A stretch of 49,064 bases of DNA. Source: Spirochaetales bacterium (lineage in GTDB: Bacteria; Spirochaetota; Spirochaetia; Treponematales; UBA12059). Under the pieces are notes generated by a model. It saw only the letters and a list, made by a program, of their open reading frames with translations. It was not told where the DNA came from and ran no database searches. Position numbers and translations under genes: made by a program. Shown piece by piece: positions 36,441 to 44,062 of the stretch (positions within the stretch are counted from its first letter, which is position 1; each line of letters starts with the position of its first letter). Location: the NCBI GenBank assembly GCA_016928955.1, contig JAFGJV010000043.1, positions 1 to 49,064 on the forward strand, in the 5' to 3' direction.

Positions 36441-36644
36441 ACATCTCCCCCTAGCTCGTATGGACGGTGCCCGCAACCTGTTTCGCACCTGAGCCTAGTG
36501 CGGCTGGGAACCGCGGGCAAGGGGAAGACTTAGGTAGAGCCGAAAAGAACCAAGGGAACTCATAGCTCGCGGCGCCGTATGGCCCAGCACGCCGTTCCTG
36601 GTGTAGGCTCTGCTTTCAGGGCGGCCGCGCCCCGGAGGATGCGT

Positions 36645-36956
36645 ATGAGCGTGTTTTTTTCCATTGAGGACAGGGACGGCGAAGCCCTGGAAGAGGTGTT
36701 CGAGCTTGACCACCTGCCCAAGGCCTTTCCCAGGGACGAGGGCCTGTGCCTGCGTTTTGTCAGGGGCGACGACGACGCGTCGTTCAACGCGGCGCAGGCG
36801 CCGATCCTCCTTAAGGAACTGGAAGCCATAGATCCCGCCGGGCTGGAGCCCAGGGCCGCAGCCGAGCTGGACCGCCTTGTGAAGCTGTGCCGGAAGCACG
36901 GGGGCAAACGCCACGTGCACCTGCGCTTCTACGGCGAGGACGGCTCGCGTGGCTGA
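36645..36956 (+). CDS. small hypothetical protein
   Basis: A 103-residue soluble protein that I do not recognise. It is acidic in the first half and basic near the end (KLCRKHGGKRHVHLRFYG). Predicted content is mixed alpha/beta with no signal peptide. ATG 36645 has GGAGG 7-11 nt upstream. It overlaps nudC by 8 nt and is therefore almost surely co-translated with it. Good codon use and the coupling support a real gene, possibly a partner or a regulator of the Nudix enzyme. Confidence 0.7.
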   Translation: MSVFFSIEDRDGEALEEVFELDHLPKAFPRDEGLCLRFVRGDDDASFNAAQAPILLKELEAIDPAGLEPRAAAELDRLVKLCRKHGGKRHVHLRFYGEDGSRG

Positions 36957-37758
36957 AGGCGGCGTGTGGGCCGTACGCGGCGCTGAAATTCTCGTTCGAG
37001 AGGGTGAGGATTTTGCCGCCCGCGCCGAGCCGGGCAGCTCCTTGCTGTCGTGCCGGGGCCTGGCTTTGCCGGAGCCGGCCGACCGGTATGCCCTGCCCCC
37101 GTACGCCGGCCGCCCCGAACTGGACGGCATGGCGCTCCTGTACCCGGAAGACGCTCCCGCGCCGAACGGCTGGGAATGGCGGCCGCTACGCGCGGCCGTG
37201 ATGGCCCTGCCGGAAGACGCCTGGCTGCCGGCGGCCCGGGCCATGGCCTTCATGCGCTGGCGGGAAGCCACCAGGTACTGCGGGCGCTGCGGCGGCCGCA
37301 ACCAGGACAAGGCAGACGAACCGGCCCGCGTGTGCTCAGCGTGCGGCGCCTTGAGCTTTCCCAGGATATCGCCCGCCGTGCTGGCCGTGGTGCGCCGGGG
37401 CGACAAACTGCTCCTGGCCCGCAACGCGGCCTCCCGCCTGGGCTTCTGGAGCCTGATAGCCGGCTTTGTGGAACCAGGCGAGCGCTTTGAGGACTGCGTG
37501 CGCCGCGAGGTGCGTGAAGAGGTCGGCGTGGATATACGCGTGGACGGCTACCTGGGTTCCCAGCCCTGGCCCTTCCCCGACCAGCTGATGATTGGCTTCA
37601 AGGCCAGCTGGGCGTCCGGCGAGCTTGCCCCGGACGGCGTGGAGATAGCCGAGGCGGGCTGGTTCGGTCCGGATGACCATCCGCCCCTGCCCAATCCCGG
37701 GAGCCTGTCCCGCAGGCTGATAGACGCCGCCCTGGCCGACATTGCCGCAGGCCGCTGA
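36949..37758 (+). CDS. nudC: NADH pyrophosphatase (NudC-type, NAD-capped RNA hydrolase)
   Basis: A 269-residue Nudix protein with the full NudC layout. The zinc ribbon is C111-C114 and C129-C132, the Nudix box runs from G172 to G193 (GFVEPGERF...REVREEVG), and the SQPWPFP signature (204-210) defines NADH pyrophosphatases. It splits NADH or the NAD cap of RNA into NMNH and AMP. GTG 36949 starts 8 nt before the end of the small-protein gene, with GGCGAGGA as ribosome binding site. Together with nadC-nadA-nadB elsewhere in the window it contributes to NAD turnover. It converges on the TtcA-like gene, 16 nt away. Confidence 0.93.
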   Translation: MAEGGVWAVRGAEILVREGEDFAARAEPGSSLLSCRGLALPEPADRYALPPYAGRPELDGMALLYPEDAPAPNGWEWRPLRAAVMALPEDAWLPAARAMAFMRWREATRYCGRCGGRNQDKADEPARVCSACGALSFPRISPAVLAVVRRGDKLLLARNAASRLGFWSLIAGFVEPGERFEDCVRREVREEVGVDIRVDGYLGSQPWPFPDQLMIGFKASWASGELAPDGVEIAEAGWFGPDDHPPLPNPGSLSRRLIDAALADIAAGR

Positions 37759-37774
37759 GTCAGCCGCGCCGGCC

Positions 37775-38494
37775 TCAGGGCAGATACTCGGCGTTGATGT
37801 GCCTGAGCGACTCCACGATGTTCAGTTTGGCAGCGCGTGAGCCCCGCGTCAAAAGCTCAACGCGCTCCCGTACGCGGTCGCGCTCGGAGTGGTCGTTGTA
37901 GCCGCAGGTGCAGGTGGACGACGCGATGCCCAGGGCTGTCGCCAGCTCCTCGATCTGCCGCTCCTCCACCAGGTACAGGGGCCGTAGCACCCGCAGGGGA
38001 TATTTGCGGTACCTGAGCACGGGCGGCATGGTGGACAGTTCGCCTTTGCGGAGCATGTTCATGAACAAGGTCTCAAGGACGTCATCCAGGTGGTGGCCAA
38101 GGACAACGGCCGTATAGCCGTGGTCCATGGCATAGCGGATCAGCTCAGTGCGCCGCTGGGTACTGCACCAGTAGCAGTTCATGGACCGGCCGGGTTTGAG
38201 TCGCCCTATCACCGGCACGTCCAGCGTGTGGAGCGGCAAGCCCCAGGACCGATACGCGTCCGCCAACCCGGGCGAGAAGGCGTCCGGGGACAGGTCCGTG
38301 CGCACGTGGACTGCCAGGATGTCGGCGTCCAGCCTGCCCTGGGCCTTCTTCATGGCCAGGTCATGGGCCAACACGGCAGAATCCTTGCCGCCGGATGCGC
38401 CCAGGAGTACGCGGTCACCCGGCTGGAACATGTCCCAGGTTTTGACCGCCTTGACGACCAGGCCGTCCACGGCCTGGGCTATGGTTCTCAGCAT
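37775..38494 (-). CDS. TtcA-like PP-loop ATPase (tRNA thiolation family)
   Basis: A 239-residue protein with the ATP-pyrophosphatase PP-loop SGGKDS at residues 34-39, the C107-x2-C110 pair (MNCYWCSTQRR), GHHLDDVLETLFMNML and a later cysteine cluster (STCTCGYND). TtcA/TtuA enzymes adenylate a tRNA base and insert sulfur with a [4Fe-4S] cluster held by cysteines. It is shorter than E. coli TtcA (about 310). The CxxC and CTC motifs differ from classic TtcA spacing, so the thiolated position is uncertain. It is transcribed toward nudC. The 137 nt after its start (38495-38631) hold the promoter region of the divergent sensor gene. Confidence 0.85.
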   Translation of the reverse strand: MLRTIAQAVDGLVVKAVKTWDMFQPGDRVLLGASGGKDSAVLAHDLAMKKAQGRLDADILAVHVRTDLSPDAFSPGLADAYRSWGLPLHTLDVPVIGRLKPGRSMNCYWCSTQRRTELIRYAMDHGYTAVVLGHHLDDVLETLFMNMLRKGELSTMPPVLRYRKYPLRVLRPLYLVEERQIEELATALGIASSTCTCGYNDHSERDRVRERVELLTRGSRAAKLNIVESLRHINAEYLP

Positions 38495-38631
38495 GGCATC
38501 ACGCTACCATACATGGGTGGCCTTGCGCAAAACCGCAGGGGCACCCGCTCCTGCATGGTCGCCCGTAAGAAATGTTTTTTTTGGGGAACCGTTTTGCCCG
38601 CCGCAACGACCTCTTGTCATGGAGGATGAAC

Positions 38632-39171
38632 ATGAACCTTGGTAAACGCATCCTATGGCTGGTCGTTGCCCTCAGCGCGTCCGGCACGGTTTTTGCCCAG
38701 AACACGGCTGCCCCGAATCTTGCCCAGGCCCCAGACGACAGGGCCGCCGACTATGGCCTTGCGGAAGCCCGCAGGGATATCCGCGTGGTCAACCTGGGCC
38801 AGGACGAGGCCGAGCGCATCCTGGAGCGGCTGGCCAAGGACGGGCGGGAACTGGAGCGCGCCCGGGCTGAGATCCGGGAAGCCCAGGCACGCGTGGCCAG
38901 GCTCCTCCTCGACGAAAAACCGGACCTGGGCGCCATCCAGGATACGGTGCGGAAAAGCCTCGAGGCCGAATACCTCATACGAATGGCCCAGATCCGGCGC
39001 AACCTGGACCTGCGTGCCCTGCTTGGCGACCAGCGCTGGGCGGCCCTCTGGCGCCTGTCCAGGGAGTACACGACGCTTGCCCGCTCCGGGGACCTGCGCA
39101 GGCTGGCAGACAAGGCCGACGACGCCGAACGTCTGGCGCCGCTCATCGAGGTGCTGAAAGCCCTGCAGTGA
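38632..39171 (+). CDS. periplasmic sensor-like protein (CnrX/ZraP type)
   Basis: A 179-residue exported protein. A signal peptide (residues 1-26, GKRILWLVVALSASGTVFA) precedes a helical, charged domain. LEYLIRMAQIRRNLDLRALLGDQRWAALW-like spacing, here EYLIRMAQIRRNLDLRALL followed by GDQRWAALW near residues 110-145, resembles periplasmic heavy-metal sensors (CnrX, ZraP, CpxP-like helical hairpins). The position directly before an ECF sigma factor, joined by a GTGA overlap, supports a sensing role in envelope or metal stress. The ATG at 38632 is 6 nt after GGAGG, and ATG 38626 is too close to it. No metal-binding histidine cluster like that of CnrX is obvious, so the ligand is unknown. Confidence 0.65.
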   Translation: MNLGKRILWLVVALSASGTVFAQNTAAPNLAQAPDDRAADYGLAEARRDIRVVNLGQDEAERILERLAKDGRELERARAEIREAQARVARLLLDEKPDLGAIQDTVRKSLEAEYLIRMAQIRRNLDLRALLGDQRWAALWRLSREYTTLARSGDLRRLADKADDAERLAPLIEVLKALQ

Positions 39172-39773
39172 GTCCAGTGACCGGTCCTGATTCGGATGCT
39201 GTTCTCGTGGCGGCCTGGCGCGACCGGGGCGACCAGGCTGCCTTTGGCGAGCTTGTGCGCCGCCACGGCCGCCTGATGGCCCGCGTCGCCGTGGTGGCGC
39301 TCGGCAGCTCGGGCAGGCGGGACCCCGGCCTGGTCCAGGACGCCGTCCAGGAGGCGTCCATCAGGCTCCTGTCCGCACTGCGCGGCTACCGGGGTGACGC
39401 TCCGCTGTCCGCCTTCATAGCGTCGCTAGCCCGTAGGGCCGCCCTGGACGAACTGCGCAAGGCTCTGCGGCACAAAAAACGCGCCGAGCTGGCAAGCAGT
39501 CACGCCGACACGGCCCGGCCCAAGCCTGAAGACCCGGCCTCCGGCGCCGAGCGGACGGCGGCCGCCCTTGCCGTCCTGTCACGCCTGGACGCGCTCAAGG
39601 AGCCCGACAGGAGCATCCTGTACCTGCGCGACGCGGAAGACCTGGATATAGCGAGCCTTGCCGCCATGTTCCGGCTGCCGCAGGGAACCGTAAAAAGCAA
39701 ACTGGCTCGGGCCAGGGCGGCGGTACGCGCAGACGTGATCTCAGCCTGGGGAGAAGGAGGGACCCTGTCATGA
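39168..39773 (+). CDS. ECF-type RNA polymerase sigma factor
   Basis: A 201-residue sigma-70 family factor of the extracytoplasmic class. Region 2 is QAAFGELVRRHGRLMARVA...LVQDAVQEASIRLL (residues 23-65) with FIASLARRAALDELR for promoter melting. Region 4 carries the helix-turn-helix RLPQGTVKSKLARARAAVR (170-190). It is coupled to both neighbours, GTGA with the upstream sensor-like gene and ATGA with the downstream membrane protein. Such factors are held by a membrane anti-sigma and released by an envelope signal. No ribosome binding site is needed because of the overlaps. The target promoters are unknown. Confidence 0.9.
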   Translation: MSPVTGPDSDAVLVAAWRDRGDQAAFGELVRRHGRLMARVAVVALGSSGRRDPGLVQDAVQEASIRLLSALRGYRGDAPLSAFIASLARRAALDELRKALRHKKRAELASSHADTARPKPEDPASGAERTAAALAVLSRLDALKEPDRSILYLRDAEDLDIASLAAMFRLPQGTVKSKLARARAAVRADVISAWGEGGTLS

Positions 39774-40156
39774 AACCGGACACAACGCCCGCACGGGCAG
39801 TCCCCGATGAACGAGACGAGGTTTTGGGTTCCATATTGGCTGAAGCCGCCGACGTGGCCGCTGGCCGCGCCAGAGCCCGGCTTGAGCCCATCCTGGGCAC
39901 GACAGCCCGGCATGGCCCGCGCGCGCATCGCAGGACGCCGGTCTTGATCGCTGCCGCAGCCGTGCTCGCCGTTGGCCTGGCGCTCGGGCCAGGCCTTGTC
40001 CGGTCGGCGTCCACCGCGAGCGCGCTCCAGGACCTGGCAGCATACATCATACCCGAGCGCTCAACCTGGCTAGCCGACACGCTTGCCGTATCCTCCTGGG
40101 ATGGCGACACGGCCCGCTTTGTCACGGATCTCTGGTCCGAGCCCGGAGCCTACTAG
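39770..40156 (+). CDS. small membrane protein, probable anti-sigma factor
   Basis: A 128-residue protein with an acidic/basic cytoplasmic N-terminus (about 56 residues), one membrane helix at 57-76 (VLIAAAAVLAVGLALGPGLV) and a 50-residue periplasmic tail. It has no zinc-binding ZAS motif. Its topology is like CnrY, the anti-sigma of CnrH, which is small and single-pass. The ATGA overlap with the ECF sigma gene makes an anti-sigma role likely. A hairpin repeat follows 49 nt after the stop. The assignment rests on topology and context rather than sequence similarity. Confidence 0.6.
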   Translation: MKPDTTPARAVPDERDEVLGSILAEAADVAAGRARARLEPILGTTARHGPRAHRRTPVLIAAAAVLAVGLALGPGLVRSASTASALQDLAAYIIPERSTWLADTLAVSSWDGDTARFVTDLWSEPGAY

Positions 40157-40205
40157 CCATCCCGCCGAACCATTACCGCTCCCCATCCTTCCCCTGAGTG
40201 GCTAC

Positions 40206-40243
40206 AGGGAGGCTCTAAAAACTTAAGTTTTTAGAGCCTCCCT
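40206..40243. repeat. hairpin repeat, copy 5 (38-bp perfect palindrome)
   Basis: AGGGAGGCTCTAAAAACTT followed at once by its exact complement, with no loop. It is the most symmetric member of the family and lies 49 nt after the membrane-protein stop. Confidence 0.95.
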
Positions 40244-40268
40244 ACAGTCAAGCCGACACCTGTTCCGC

Positions 40269-40297
40269 TTGACTGTGGACTTGCGTCGCGCTATTAT
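40269..40297 (+). promoter_or_regulatory. strong promoter of the SPFH operon
   Basis: TTGACT at 40269-40274, a 17-nt spacer and TATTAT at 40292-40297: five of six matches at each box with ideal spacing. The dyad at 40303-40321 begins 5 nt downstream, over the start of transcription. Confidence 0.7.
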
Positions 40298-40302
40298 CAT
40301 CT

Positions 40303-40321
40303 TGATATCATTATGATATCA
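40303..40321. promoter_or_regulatory. operator: two TGATATCA sites, probably for the RHH repressor
   Basis: TGATATCATTATGATATCA is two copies of the 8-bp palindrome TGATATCA separated by TTA. The whole 19 bp is also a perfect palindrome about its central T. Tandem short palindromes covering +1 are typical of ribbon-helix-helix regulators, and an RHH gene is the second gene of the operon it controls. Confidence 0.65.
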
Positions 40322-40392
40322 CATCCGCGCGGACCTGTTTAAAACCCAGTCCCACGCGGCAGGGCGCGCGGCGCCCGAAAGCGAGGATAGAT

Positions 40393-41400
40393 ATGAGCGA
40401 CCATGATAGGGAGAAAGCCCCCCGGCATCTGGACGGCATGACCGTCACCATTCTGAACATCCTGGCCCTGATCGGGGCCACGGTGGTATTCATCATGGGC
40501 ATGTCCGCCATAGAAACCGGCCGGAACTCCGTGGCCTGGATAGCGGCATCCATAGCCGCCGGCCTTTACCTCTTCCTTGTCGGCCCCGTTTTGTTCGGCG
40601 GCCTCAAGGTCATCAAGCCAAATGAAGCACTGGTGTTCACGCTCCTGGGGCGCTACCACGGCTGCCTGAAGGAAGCTGGCTTCTATTTCATCAACCCGCT
40701 TGCCCAGGCGGTGCGCCCCGTCGGCCAACAAGCCCAGCCCTCACAGGGCGCGGATAAAGCCGCCCAGTCTGCGCGAACGTCCACGGGCAGTATCGGGACC
40801 AAGGCGCCGAACAGGGCGCTGTCGCTCAAGGCCATGACCCTGAGCAACGACAAGCAGAAGGTCAACGACGCTCTGGGCAACCCCATCGTGATAGGCATCG
40901 CGGTTGTCTGGAAGGTGGTCAACCCGACCAAGGCCGTGCTGGACGTGGACGATTATCCCGAATTCCTCTCGATCCAGTGCGACGCGGCCCTGCGCAACAT
41001 CGTGCGGCTCTATCCTTACGATTCGAGCGACGAGGAAGAGGAAAAGTCCCTGCGCGGCTCCAGCCAGGAAGTGGCCAAGCGCCTGCGCGACGAAATCCAC
41101 GCCAAGGTGGATGTAGCGGGCATTGAGATTATAGAGGCCAGGATCACGCACCTGTCCTACGCGCCCGAGATAGCGGCGGCCATGCTCCAGCGCCAGCAGG
41201 CGTCGGCCGTCATAGCCGCCAGGCAGAAAATCGTTGAAGGCGCAGTGGGCATGGTAGAGATGGCGCTGGCCAAGCTGAGCGAGAACAATATCGTCGACCT
41301 GGACGAGGAACGGAAGGCGGCCATGGTCAGCAACCTCCTGGTGGTGCTCTGCTCGAACCGCGACACCCAGCCGGTGGTCAACTCCGGTTCCATCTACTGA
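40393..41400 (+). CDS. SPFH/band 7 membrane protein
   Basis: A 335-residue protein of the SPFH (stomatin/prohibitin/flotillin) family. Two N-terminal membrane helices (about residues 17-38 and 48-70) are followed by [31 protein letters not shown], the classic opening of the SPFH domain. An insert rich in Gln/Ser/Ala (about 105-140) interrupts it. The end carries [37 protein letters not shown], a coiled-coil oligomerisation part. Such proteins form membrane rings or scaffolds and are often co-transcribed with small RHH proteins. GCGAGG lies 6 nt before ATG 40393. It is the first gene of the operon with RHH and ABC-exporter genes. Confidence 0.9.
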
Positions 41401-41413
41401 AGGCGGCCAGGGC

Positions 41414-41632
41414 GTGGCTGGCGACGGCGACAAGAAACAGGTTCTCCTCAGGCTGTCGCCCGGTTTGTGGCGGGAGCTGGCCGCGTGGGCGGAAGACGAT
41501 TTTCGTTCCATCAACGGCCAGATAGAATACCTCCTGTCGGAGGCGGTAAAGAAGCGGAAAGCGGGCTCGGGCCCGCGGAACTCGGAAAGGGACGCGCGCC
41601 AGGACCAAAGGTCCGGCGCGGACAGGGAGTGA
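41414..41632 (+). CDS. ribbon-helix-helix (Arc-type) DNA-binding protein
   Basis: A 72-residue protein. KKQVLLRLSPGLWRELAAWAEDDF is an Arc/MetJ-type beta-strand plus first helix, and NGQIEYLLSEAVKKRK the second helix. The last 20 residues are polar. RHH dimers insert the paired strands into the major groove. It lies 13 nt after the SPFH gene, opens with GTG, and is followed by the ABC gene at a 4-nt distance. It probably represses the operon at 40303-40321. There is no sign of a toxin partner, so an antitoxin role is less likely. Confidence 0.8.
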   Translation: MAGDGDKKQVLLRLSPGLWRELAAWAEDDFRSINGQIEYLLSEAVKKRKAGSGPRNSERDARQDQRSGADRE

Positions 41633-41636
41633 ACGC

Positions 41637-42380
41637 ATGATAGAACTCAGTCGGGTATCTAAATCCTACGCCAAAAGCGGCGTCAAGGCCGTGAACGACG
41701 CGGACGTGACGGTCAAAAACGGCGAGATTTTCGGGTTTCTCGGCCCGAACGGGGCCGGCAAGACGACCACCATCAAGCTGATGACCGGCGTGCTCAAGCC
41801 GGACTCGGGCACCGTGTCCATAGACGGCATAGACATGGCCGAGCGGGCCCTGGACGCCAAGCGCCGCTTTGGCTACGTGACCGACAATCCGGAACTCTTC
41901 GCGCGCCTCAAGGCGTCGGAATACCTGAACTTTGTGGCAGACGTGTACGGCGTGGACACGGCGGACCGCAGGGAGCGCGTTGAGCGCTACGCTAGCCTCT
42001 TCGAGATCAAGGACGTGCTCAACGCGTCCATAGGCAGTTACAGCCACGGCATGAAGCAGAAGCTCCTGGTCACGGCCAGCCTGGTCCACGACCCGGACAA
42101 CTGGATACTGGACGAGCCCATGGTCGGCCTGGACCCCCGCTCGTCGTTCAACCTCAAGGAGCTGATGCGGGAGCGGGCCGCCGCCGGCAAGACGGTCTTC
42201 TTCTCCACGCACGTGATGGAAGTCGCCGAGCGCCTCTGCGACCGGCTGTCCATCATAAACAAGGGCGCCATCCTGTTCACGGGCACCCTGGCCGAGCTCA
42301 AGACCAGGGGCGGCTCGGACTCCTCTCTGGAGAAACTGTTCCTTGAGCTGGTGGACGACAAGGAGGAGGCGAAGGCATGA
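41637..42380 (+). CDS. ABC transporter ATP-binding protein
   Basis: A 247-residue ATPase subunit of an ABC-2-type exporter. Walker A is GPNGAGKT at 36-43, the signature YSHGMKQK near 136 (an SGGQ variant with H), and Walker B WILDEPMVGLDP. FSTHVMEVAERLCDR is the switch region. A GGGAG site lies before ATG 41637 and the gene overlaps the permease by 4 nt. It powers export of an unknown substrate. The downstream permease fixes the system as a two-gene exporter. Confidence 0.93.
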   Translation: MIELSRVSKSYAKSGVKAVNDADVTVKNGEIFGFLGPNGAGKTTTIKLMTGVLKPDSGTVSIDGIDMAERALDAKRRFGYVTDNPELFARLKASEYLNFVADVYGVDTADRRERVERYASLFEIKDVLNASIGSYSHGMKQKLLVTASLVHDPDNWILDEPMVGLDPRSSFNLKELMRERAAAGKTVFFSTHVMEVAERLCDRLSIINKGAILFTGTLAELKTRGGSDSSLEKLFLELVDDKEEAKA

Positions 42381-44062
42381 AGGTATATTTCAGCCTAGCC
42401 GCCTTGTACATCCGGAGCTTCTACAACCTGCCGGGAAAAAGGGCGCCGGGAGCCAAGCTGGACGGCAAGAAAATCGGCAAGCTCGTGGGCATGACCGTGC
42501 TGGTGCTGTTCCTGCTGGCCAACCTGGGCGTCATGTTCGTCGGACTGAACCTGGGGCTGTACGAGTCGCTGGCGTCAGTGGGCATGCAGGGCATGCTCCT
42601 CCTCAACGCCGTGGTCATGGCCACGGTCATGACCCTGATCATCGGCTTCCTCACCTCCCTGTCCACCTACTACCTCAACGACATGGAGCTCCAGCTTCTG
42701 GCCATGCCGATCAAGCCCAGGGCCTTGTTCGCCGCCAAGTTCACGGCCGTATACGTGTCGGAAGCCATCTTCTCGCTCTTCTTCATCCTGTCAGCCATGG
42801 TGATATTCGGGATCAAGGAGCAGCCCCACCCGCTTATGTACCTGTGGGGAACCCTTGCGGCGTTCCTGGTGCCCATTCCCGCCCTGGCCGCGTGCTACTT
42901 CGTGCAGGTGCCCCTTTTGAGCGTGGCCCGCTTCCTCAAAAACCGGCAGACCATACTGCTGGTCGGCGGCGTCCTGGGCCTGGCCATGGGCCTGGGCTTC
43001 AACCTGTACTACCAGACCATGTTCAGCCGCCTGGCCACCGACCCGGCCTGGATAGCCCAGAACATGGCAGGCCCCGAGTCCCTGGTTGCCCAGGCCGGCC
43101 GCGCCTGGCCCCCGGCCTATCTTGCCTGGAAGGCCATGAGCCAGCCCGCCTCGGCCCAGGCAGCGCTGTCCCTGCTGGGCATGGCCGCGTTCTGCCTGTC
43201 CTTCCTGGCGGCCGCGGTTCTGGTATTGTCAGGCGCCTACGCCAAAAGCCTTGTCGGCTTCAACGAGGTCAGGCTGCGCCGCCTGGGCGCCCGGACGGGC
43301 GAGTACCTGGACAGGAACCTGCGCAGGGGCCATGCCTTTGGCACGCTGGTGCTACGGGAGGTGCGCATGATGAACCGCGAGCCCATGTACCTGCTCAACG
43401 GTCCCTTCATTATCGTGCTCATGCCCGTGATCTTTGGCATCATGCTGGCCGCGCAAAAGGACGCGTTCCTATCCGACCCGGACATGGCAGGGCTCCTTGC
43501 CCTGCTCCAGAGCGGCGGCGGAGCGGTGATAGCCGGCCTGGCGGGAGCCTTCCTGGGCTCGGGCACAAGCATCACCTGTACGGCGGTGTCGCGGGACGCA
43601 AAAGCCCTGCCCTACATCAAGAGCCTGCCCATCAAAGCCGGCAGGTATTTCCTGGCCAAGCTGGCGCACGGCCTGATATTCGGCGTCTTCGGGGCCGTGG
43701 CCGGGGTAGGACTCCTCACCTGGGCACTCGGGCTTGGCGCCTCTGACGCCGCCGCCGGACTTGCCATGGCGCTCGGCCTTTCGGCCTTGGTGAACATGGC
43801 GGGCCTCTGGCTGGACACGGCCAATCCGCGCCTCAAGTGGGACAATCCCATGGCGGCGCTCAAGCAGAATCCCAACTCGGTCATCATGATCCTGGGAACC
43901 ATGGGCCTGATCGGCGGCGCGGGCTACCTGGCCTTCAGCCAGGGCCTGTCATCGTGGCAGGCGGCCGCCTGGTTCGGCCTGGTGCCCGGCGTGGCCTTTG
44001 CCGCCTTGCTGGCCGCCTTCCCGGCCTACGCCGAGCGACGCCTGGCGGCCATGGAAGTATGA
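42377..44062 (+). CDS. ABC-2-type transporter permease
   Basis: A 561-residue membrane protein with about a dozen hydrophobic segments in two halves (residues 35-270 and 330-555), joined by a cytoplasmic loop (ARTGEYLDRNLRRGHAFG...LREVRMMNREPMYLLNG). It looks like a fused pair of ABC-2 permease modules, as in large lantibiotic- or lipid-type exporters. The start ATG 42377 overlaps the ATPase stop (ATGA). The transported substrate is unknown. The operon's SPFH protein suggests a role in membrane organisation or in defence against a membrane-active compound. That is inference. Confidence 0.85.
   Translation: MKVYFSLAALYIRSFYNLPGKRAPGAKLDGKKIGKLVGMTVLVLFLLANLGVMFVGLNLGLYESLASVGMQGMLLLNAVVMATVMTLIIGFLTSLSTYYLNDMELQLLAMPIKPRALFAAKFTAVYVSEAIFSLFFILSAMVIFGIKEQPHPLMYLWGTLAAFLVPIPALAACYFVQVPLLSVARFLKNRQTILLVGGVLGLAMGLGFNLYYQTMFSRLATDPAWIAQNMAGPESLVAQAGRAWPPAYLAWKAMSQPASAQAALSLLGMAAFCLSFLAAAVLVLSGAYAKSLVGFNEVRLRRLGARTGEYLDRNLRRGHAFGTLVLREVRMMNREPMYLLNGPFIIVLMPVIFGIMLAAQKDAFLSDPDMAGLLALLQSGGGAVIAGLAGAFLGSGTSITCTAVSRDAKALPYIKSLPIKAGRYFLAKLAHGLIFGVFGAVAGVGLLTWALGLGASDAAAGLAMALGLSALVNMAGLWLDTANPRLKWDNPMAALKQNPNSVIMILGTMGLIGGAGYLAFSQGLSSWQAAAWFGLVPGVAFAALLAAFPAYAERRLAAMEV

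Follow-up and report, generated by a model that had tools for sequence, protein, structure and literature searches.

A putative three-gene envelope-stress switch with an ECF sigma factor and a conserved ECF-type promoter in Spirochaetota

What might an ECF sigma factor be doing when its gene lies between those of a small periplasmic protein and a small membrane protein, and what could hold it in check? The question is raised by three genes at positions 38632-40156 of the DNA stretch analysed here (49,064 nucleotides in full, hereafter the window), which comes from a genome of 2.87 Mb that is 99.5% complete. A sequence-only reading had proposed that these genes may be an envelope-stress circuit that mirrors CnrX-CnrH-CnrY in function. 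An envelope-type circuit stays the likeliest reading, and a conserved unit and an ECF-type promoter have been added to it. The three genes probably form an autoregulated three-component envelope-stress switch made of a periplasmic sensor, an ECF sigma factor and a membrane anti-sigma factor.

All three open reading frames lie on the forward strand and are joined by the GTGA and ATGA overlaps that had been reported. P0001 (38632-39171, 179 aa) is the first gene of the unit. The GTG start codon of the second, P0002 (39168-39773, 201 aa), overlaps the TGA of P0001 as GTGA, and the ATG start codon of the third, P0003 (39770-40156, 128 aa), overlaps the TGA of P0002 as ATGA. A perfect 36-nt palindrome, assigned to no strand, lies 50 nt past the last stop codon (40207-40242) and is a possible end-of-operon hairpin. 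As RNA it forms a 17-bp hairpin (z -6.4 for the folded region); it is absent from the terminator prediction, and a search of the window that tolerated up to 3 mismatches found no second copy. The genes at 40393-44062 are outside the conserved unit; they encode an SPFH/Band 7 protein, a small ribbon-helix-helix-like protein, an ABC transporter and a further membrane protein.

The second gene encodes an ECF sigma factor, as the sequence-only reading had it. P0002 matches Sigma70_r2 at 3.6e-10 (residues 29-99) and Sigma70_r4_2 at 6.3e-10 (residues 135-185), and it scores 69.7 bits against TIGR02937, for which the cut-off is 42.9. Its best solved-structure match is RpoE (2.6e-9). With regions 2 and 4 only, in about 200 aa, P0002 has the make-up of an ECF sigma factor, and its placement in a sigma tree (below) agrees.

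What is the protein encoded before it? P0001 had been described as a helical periplasmic protein, and its helix-rich sequence and a signal peptide recognised by eye bear this out. Basic residues at the N-terminus are followed by a hydrophobic stretch ending in F-A-Q-N, which was judged by eye to be a Sec signal (residues 1-22, 38632-38697, forward strand) with cleavage probably before Gln23. This end is conserved among 31 sensors, window counted (A22 in 29, Q23 in 26). An alternative in-frame ATG lies two codons upstream at 38626; 38632 is the likelier start because GGAGG abuts the ATG at 38626. P0001 can be placed as a putative sensor of the Metal_resist (CnrX/ZraP) superfamily by Pfam, composition, alignment and a model. 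Its own score against PF13801 is 21.4 bits (E 3e-4), under the 29.2 cut-off; among 18 aligned sensors, 17 match the family with E values of at most 0.1, the best being 7.5e-10. As yardsticks, CnrX matches at 7.5e-26, ZraP at 4.8e-23 and CpxP at 8.3e-5. Among 17 genomes that carry the unit, PF13801 is matched at 0.001 in 13 and above the cut-off in 8, some via a second gene described below, and the other four have no match at 0.001. All but one of the 18 PF13801 places in these 17 genomes are the sensor or that second gene.

A helical hairpin fold of P0001 is plausible. The single-sequence model, which is of low confidence (mean pLDDT 60), shows a hairpin of helices 57-93 and 99-131. Structure comparison with CnrX and ZraP had been proposed as a check, and it went only part of the way: the hairpin was obtained at that low confidence, Foldseek gave no match at 0.001, and ZraP, CpxP and CnrX appeared only among its weak matches, amid unrelated helical proteins. 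Unrelated hairpins score like ZraP when aligned to the model with VIA-align, which makes that comparison unusable as fold evidence. The sensor alignment found no solved structure at E 1. A probability of 0.2% was returned by hhalign for the sensors against the single CnrX sequence, a weak test that ZraP and CpxP failed likewise.

The sensor alignment also marks a conserved stretch (38968-39039, forward strand) with E113, R123, R135 and W136. All 29 sensors from outside genus g42 retain these four residues. The g42 pair departs from this at one residue each, with Arg in place of E113 in one sensor and Tyr in place of W136 in the other. These changes, from one genus only, hint that the four residues may serve a partner.

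Could the unit be a true CnrX-type metal sensor that controls metal efflux? CnrX has a membrane anchor and a histidine-containing Ni/Co site. P0001 has a predicted cleavable signal peptide, and the reported absence of the CnrX histidines turns out to be a stronger case than was claimed, since P0001 contains neither His nor Cys. Across the 31 sensors, His or Cys stays below 30% in every alignment column, and 22 of the 31 are without His in the last 150 residues. The lack of both residues in P0001 makes CnrX-type nickel sensing unlikely. Some observations do speak for a metal sensor: PF13801 takes its name from heavy-metal resistance and includes both CnrX and ZraP, P0002 is 27% identical to CnrH, and the Acinetobacter baumannii sigma factor SigAb is described as copper-responsive in the available portion of its report (PMC12153292). 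Against these, the nine window proteins scanned (36579-42377) include no RND or cation-diffusion protein, though an ABC transporter is encoded at 41637-44062. A metal-efflux unit is thus highly improbable. Membership of P0001 in CnrX was rejected, with no metal ligands in P0001 and none conserved in the 31 sensors. For a unit of the envelope-stress kind, misfolded or damaged envelope protein would be more likely as the signal than a metal.

The third gene encodes a single-pass membrane protein without the ZAS motif, as had been claimed, and P0003 can be read as a putative anti-sigma factor. It has one hydrophobic stretch, placed by hydropathy at about residues 59-77 (39944-40000, forward strand), which leaves cytosolic residues 1 to about 56. 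The ZAS signature HxxxCxxC occurs in none of the 25 order-level membrane proteins tested, P0003 included. In an alignment of 18 sequences (A2), certain residues recur in the short cytosolic head, basic residues precede the membrane segment, and a linker that varies in length leads to a tail that also recurs. In P0003 the tail carries the motif F-V-T-D-L-W at residues 117-122 (40118-40135, forward strand), a putative docking site for the sensor identified by alignment. Of 25 proteins, window counted, 22 have the pattern [LI][WF] in their final 25 residues, the exceptions being L127, L129 and L133. Family searches gave little: P0003 has no Pfam match, and no anti-sigma family in Pfam, CnrY PF17524 included, matches P0003 or its 17 relatives in A2. 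P0003 scores 18.7 of 100 bits against NCBIfam NF052375, hhalign finds no link of its family to the single CnrY sequence, and the best solved-structure match of the alignment (E 0.067) was taken as chance. The head of about 56 residues is predicted to be helical at low confidence, in a model too weak to say more.

How is the unit expressed? A candidate ECF-type promoter, GGAACC-N16-CGAC, lies on the forward strand at 38585-38610, 21 nt before the P0001 start codon. Outside g42, 25 of 29 first genes, window counted, are preceded by this motif with at most one mismatch; the motif had been noticed first and was then tested on those very sequences. The 29 comprise 28 sigma-linked first genes and one cut by a contig end (L134). 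Thirteen of the 25 sites have no mismatch, all 25 have a spacer of 16 where 15-17 was allowed, and shuffled upstream sequences reach the score of each site in at most 3 of 100 cases. The start codons behind the order-level, second-gene and outside-order upstream regions were chosen by script. Four loci (L125, L131, L132, L145) have no clear site directly before the first gene; in L125 and L131 a site lies instead before an upstream second gene. The two g42 first genes are also without a promoter-like site. The -35 element GGAACC resembles the GGAACTT box of RpoE, as given in the available part of PMC8103513. Conservation of the site before 25 of the 29 first genes makes it very probable, as judged from sequence, that this is the promoter of P0002 itself and that the unit is autoregulated.

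Does the sigma factor have other targets? Across 16 genomes the pattern GGAACC-N16-CGAC-HW is not enriched (81 matches versus 106 of the reversed pattern), so no further target was found by the genome-wide pattern search. The genome of the window has 6 matches versus 18 reversed, and a looser GGAACC-N6-30-CGAC gives 261 versus 645 there; the opposite trend is seen in single genomes only, for example G013 (9 versus 1 reversed). Outside the operon, 65 of 73 site matches lie inside a frame that is open for 90 nt on both sides, and such frames are common in GC-rich DNA. The one useful site among them precedes the second periplasmic gene (G049:C98, L211/L256). G007, a low-GC genome, has the unit itself as its sole exact match. 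This single match and the missing enrichment indicate that the regulon is small or that its other sites are weaker. Two one-mismatch sites are also present in G007 (L254, L255). On G030:C58 (L204, L257), a GGAACC-N16-CGACAT site is followed at 96 nt by a gene whose product was taken for a 4Fe-4S membrane protein.

Are the three genes a unit beyond the window? A search with the sigma factor found relatives in 19 of 78 genomes, and the loci with enough flank have a sensor gene before the sigma gene and a membrane gene after it (L014 and L015 are each truncated at one side). When 390 genomes of the order were searched with the sensor alignment (A1), 31 proved to hold the first gene. The sigma gene follows it directly in 28 of the 31 loci, and the third gene is present in 26 of these 28, recognised 25 times by profile match and once, in L145, by eye; contig ends cut L134, L139 and L147. 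The neighbourhood is another matter. When eight flank proteins of the window were compared with 30 other loci, a TtcA-like protein and an ABC pair were matched at high identity in G005 only, and one further flank match was a 31% identical ABC protein in L120 and L121. Thirteen loci of family f4, genus g17 included, share a neighbour read as prolyl-tRNA synthetase. Since the same three-gene order recurs with other neighbours, the three genes are the unit, and more than chance holds them together. In genus g42, the sensor genes at L143:644-1222 and L144:3620-4237 have no sigma match alongside. One locus (L013/L129, in G007) keeps both unit and promoter at 35% G+C, versus 59-74% in relatives of the same family. 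Among the loci of named organisms that the sigma search returned (L025-L084), no sensor relative scores better than E 0.049, and the unit is therefore not extended to those organisms.

The pairing of a periplasmic gene with an ECF sigma gene reaches beyond the order. Across the phylum, the A1 search matched 34 of 392 Spirochaetota genomes, of which 25 lie outside the order; 21 loci outside the order were covered, the matches in G413, G429, G514 and G573 having come without loci. In 19 of the 21, the next gene after the sensor-like one encodes an ECF sigma factor. The other two differ: in L294 about 490 nt separate the sensor-like gene from a sigma gene upstream of it, and the order may be sigma gene, membrane gene, sensor gene, as in other phyla; in L297 a sensor-like gene with an ECF-type site has no sigma match in its flank. 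A short frame with a membrane segment starts -20 to +5 nt from the sigma stop codon in 18 of 18 loci checked, which leave out L282 (cut), L294 and L297; the choice of frames favours hydrophobic stretches. Upstream, GAAC[CT]-N15-17 followed by CGAC, GGTC or CGTC was found in 16 of 20 regions where 0.09 would be expected, with a motif set that was picked after looking and with L280 excluded from the count, its sensor frame being cut. The -10 element is CGAC in 5, CGTC in 2 and GGTC in 9.

The sigma tree (midpoint-rooted FastTree, 166 columns, 30 outgroup sequences cut to their matched parts) has several low inner supports (0.03-0.34). The order-level sigma factors cluster with those of L276, L278, L279, L280, L281, L282 and L284 (support 0.979). 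Eleven other sigma factors of the phylum form a separate clade (0.999), and L296 is placed elsewhere. The pairing thus appears widespread in the phylum and, by the sigma tree, not of single origin. All nine GGTC-type -10 elements belong to the separate clade, where they occur in 9 of the 11 loci. By eye, the loci of that clade (L283, L285-L293, L295) have LTPEQ-type sensors, often rich in Met and His, and membrane proteins that mostly end in an ID..L..R-like tail.

These relatives bear on the role of the third gene. The motif HxxxCxxC is present in 3 of its 18 positional equivalents in the phylum (L280, L281, L296). The zf-HC2 family matches L281 at 2.2e-4 and L296 at 3.6e-4, both just under the cut-off, and does not match L280. 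Since L280 and L281 belong to the sigma clade of the window, ZAS and non-ZAS heads stand beside sigma factors of one clade. Could P0003 nevertheless be a membrane protein of other function, with the sigma factor controlled in another way? The absence of a Pfam anti-sigma match for P0003 and its 17 aligned relatives and the shortness of its cytosolic head would fit such a role. Yet the gene lies directly downstream of, and overlaps, the sigma gene, the pattern of head and tail recurs in 18 sequences, and P0003 shares its gene position and topology with proteins that bear a ZAS motif and are encoded next to sigma genes, two of which belong to the same sigma clade. Another function is hence very unlikely, and the anti-sigma role of the third gene is supported by its three ZAS-bearing equivalents. 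The third gene of L284 looks by eye like the ZAS-type heads of L280 and L281 minus the Cys residues and has no zf-HC2 match; it is possibly a ZAS domain with a lost zinc site.

A second periplasmic gene raises the question of what the first one is for. Immediately before the unit, genomes of genus g17 carry a gene for a second secreted protein. This protein matches PF13801 above the cut-off in 3 of 3 scanned copies. The 11 stretches checked hold 8 copies of the gene, and all 8 have their own GGAACC-N16-CGAC-type site, 37-40 nt ahead of the start codon. Seven g17 loci carry this gene and the first gene side by side; the eighth copy stands on another contig of G049 (L256), and the end of that contig may be compatible with the same gene order. 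The sensor residues Q85, E113, R117, Q120, R123, R135 and W136 were not found in six aligned second-gene products.

Is P0001, then, an output of the circuit rather than its sensor? It might be a Spy/CpxP-like feedback chaperone, with P0003 sensing stress itself, for example through regulated proteolysis of its periplasmic part. CpxP, too, matches PF13801 weakly, the second promoter-bearing gene of g17 belongs to the same superfamily, and two g42 genomes keep the first gene without a sigma gene alongside. In other bacteria, CirYZ of Phocaeicola vulgatus is described as co-transcribing a Spy-like gene as output (PMC13114119, available portion), and AabB alone lowers SigAb activity like a feedback inhibitor (PMC12153292, available portion). 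The first gene immediately precedes the sigma gene in 28 of 31 order genomes, which argues the other way. So does the retention of E113, R123, R135 and W136, which are not found in the second product, as expected of a dedicated regulatory contact, and so do the seven g17 loci that hold both genes adjoining. A feedback chaperone is on balance the less likely of the two readings, and P0001 is more probably the sensor.

How does a switch with P0001 as sensor compare with known systems? CnrYXH of Cupriavidus metallidurans (pMOL28) is likewise encoded by three genes with slight overlaps, whose products are a short anti-sigma factor, a periplasmic sensor of the PF13801 family and an ECF sigma factor. 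The excerpts available describe CnrY as a two-helix anti-sigma factor that embraces the sigma factor, with release triggered by CnrX as proposed (PMC4598750, PMC7406223). The likeness that had been seen to CnrX-CnrH-CnrY holds for this build, with the different gene order that had been noted (sensor, sigma factor, membrane protein versus Y-X-H), and does not extend to membership in CnrX or CnrY, given the missing metal ligands and the missing PF17524 match. Membership of P0003 in CnrY was rejected because PF17524 matches none of the 18 relatives; as a control, CnrY itself matches it at 2.2e-51. The unit also differs from CnrYXH in having no RND genes beside it and a sigma factor that is not grouped with CnrH in the tree.

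SigAb-AabA-AabB of A. baumannii also combines a sigma factor, a membrane protein and a periplasmic helical protein in overlapping genes. According to the available portion of its report, AabA is a 107-aa membrane protein with modelled CnrY-like sigma binding, AabB is helical and periplasmic and, in the model, surrounds the end of AabA that lies in the periplasm, both had measured anti-sigma activity, and SigAb is autoregulated with few direct targets (PMC12153292). It differs in gene order (sigma, AabA, AabB) and in its copper response, and the likeness was drawn from the description, not from the AabA and AabB sequences. CirYZ-Spy of P. vulgatus has an ECF sigma factor and an anti-sigma factor co-transcribed with a Spy-like chaperone (PMC13114119, available portion), and the RpoE8 operon of Azospirillum brasilense was grouped with it as a related system. 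Both were likened by description rather than sequence, belong to other phyla and have the periplasmic gene last. RpoE-RseA-RseB of E. coli shares a membrane anti-sigma factor with a periplasmic partner and an envelope stress signal (PMC8103513, available portion); P0001 and P0003 have no Pfam match to the RseB and RseA families, and P0003 has only 128 aa and a short tail.

Taken with these precedents, namely sigma binding by CnrY with its proposed CnrX-triggered release and the SigAb-AabA-AabB arrangement, sequestration of the sigma factor combined with a tail contact is the most economical model. The cytosolic head of P0003 would hold P0002 at the inner membrane. In the periplasm, exported P0001 would most likely contact the C-terminal LW tail of P0003, and this contact would set whether P0003 releases P0002; we infer both the anti-sigma action of P0003 and the tail contact of P0001 from sequence. 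Substrates that arise under envelope stress would shift the contact and free P0002, which would then transcribe its own operon from GGAACC-N16-CGAC. In g17, the freed sigma factor would also transcribe the second periplasmic gene of the PF13801 superfamily, with its Spy/CpxP-like product.

A broader version for Spirochaetota can be offered tentatively, as possible but not probable. In such a chaperone-titration switch, a Spy-like cradle would hold the anti-sigma tail and release it when stress substrates compete, tail and sensor would diversify together, and the head would switch between ZAS and non-ZAS types within a sigma clade. LW tails occur with RW136 sensors in the order and ID..L..R tails with LTPEQ-type sensors in the other clade, a pairing seen by eye and confounded by descent.

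How new is such a unit? The sequence-only reading had suggested a circuit not yet described in this lineage. No description of such a unit in the lineage was found in a partial literature search that left out the main ECF re-classification, which is consistent with the claim as far as that coverage goes, and an existing ECF group number is possible. The searched literature on spirochaete ECF factors consists of work in Leptospira with no such three-gene switch, and the available part of a Leptospira sigma-factor review names ECF groups and no such unit (PMC12655853). The unit is known in kind; it differs in gene order, phylum, missing metal ligands, tail motif and promoter. Added here to the sequence-only reading are the conserved ECF-type promoter, the recurrence in Spirochaetota, the second promoter-bearing gene of g17 and the ZAS-bearing equivalents of the third gene. 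With this unit and its promoter, Spirochaetota would have a defined envelope-stress circuit. The loci also form a natural series: the sensor and sigma genes remain paired, the anti-sigma head may or may not be of the ZAS type, and a second gene carries the same promoter. This series and the promoter-marked second gene make control of an anti-sigma factor by a hairpin of the Spy/CnrX type directly testable. The hosts are placed in Spirochaetota because FlaA (PF04620), a spirochaete flagellar family, is present in 20 of 20 order genomes searched and in 0 of 14 control genomes.
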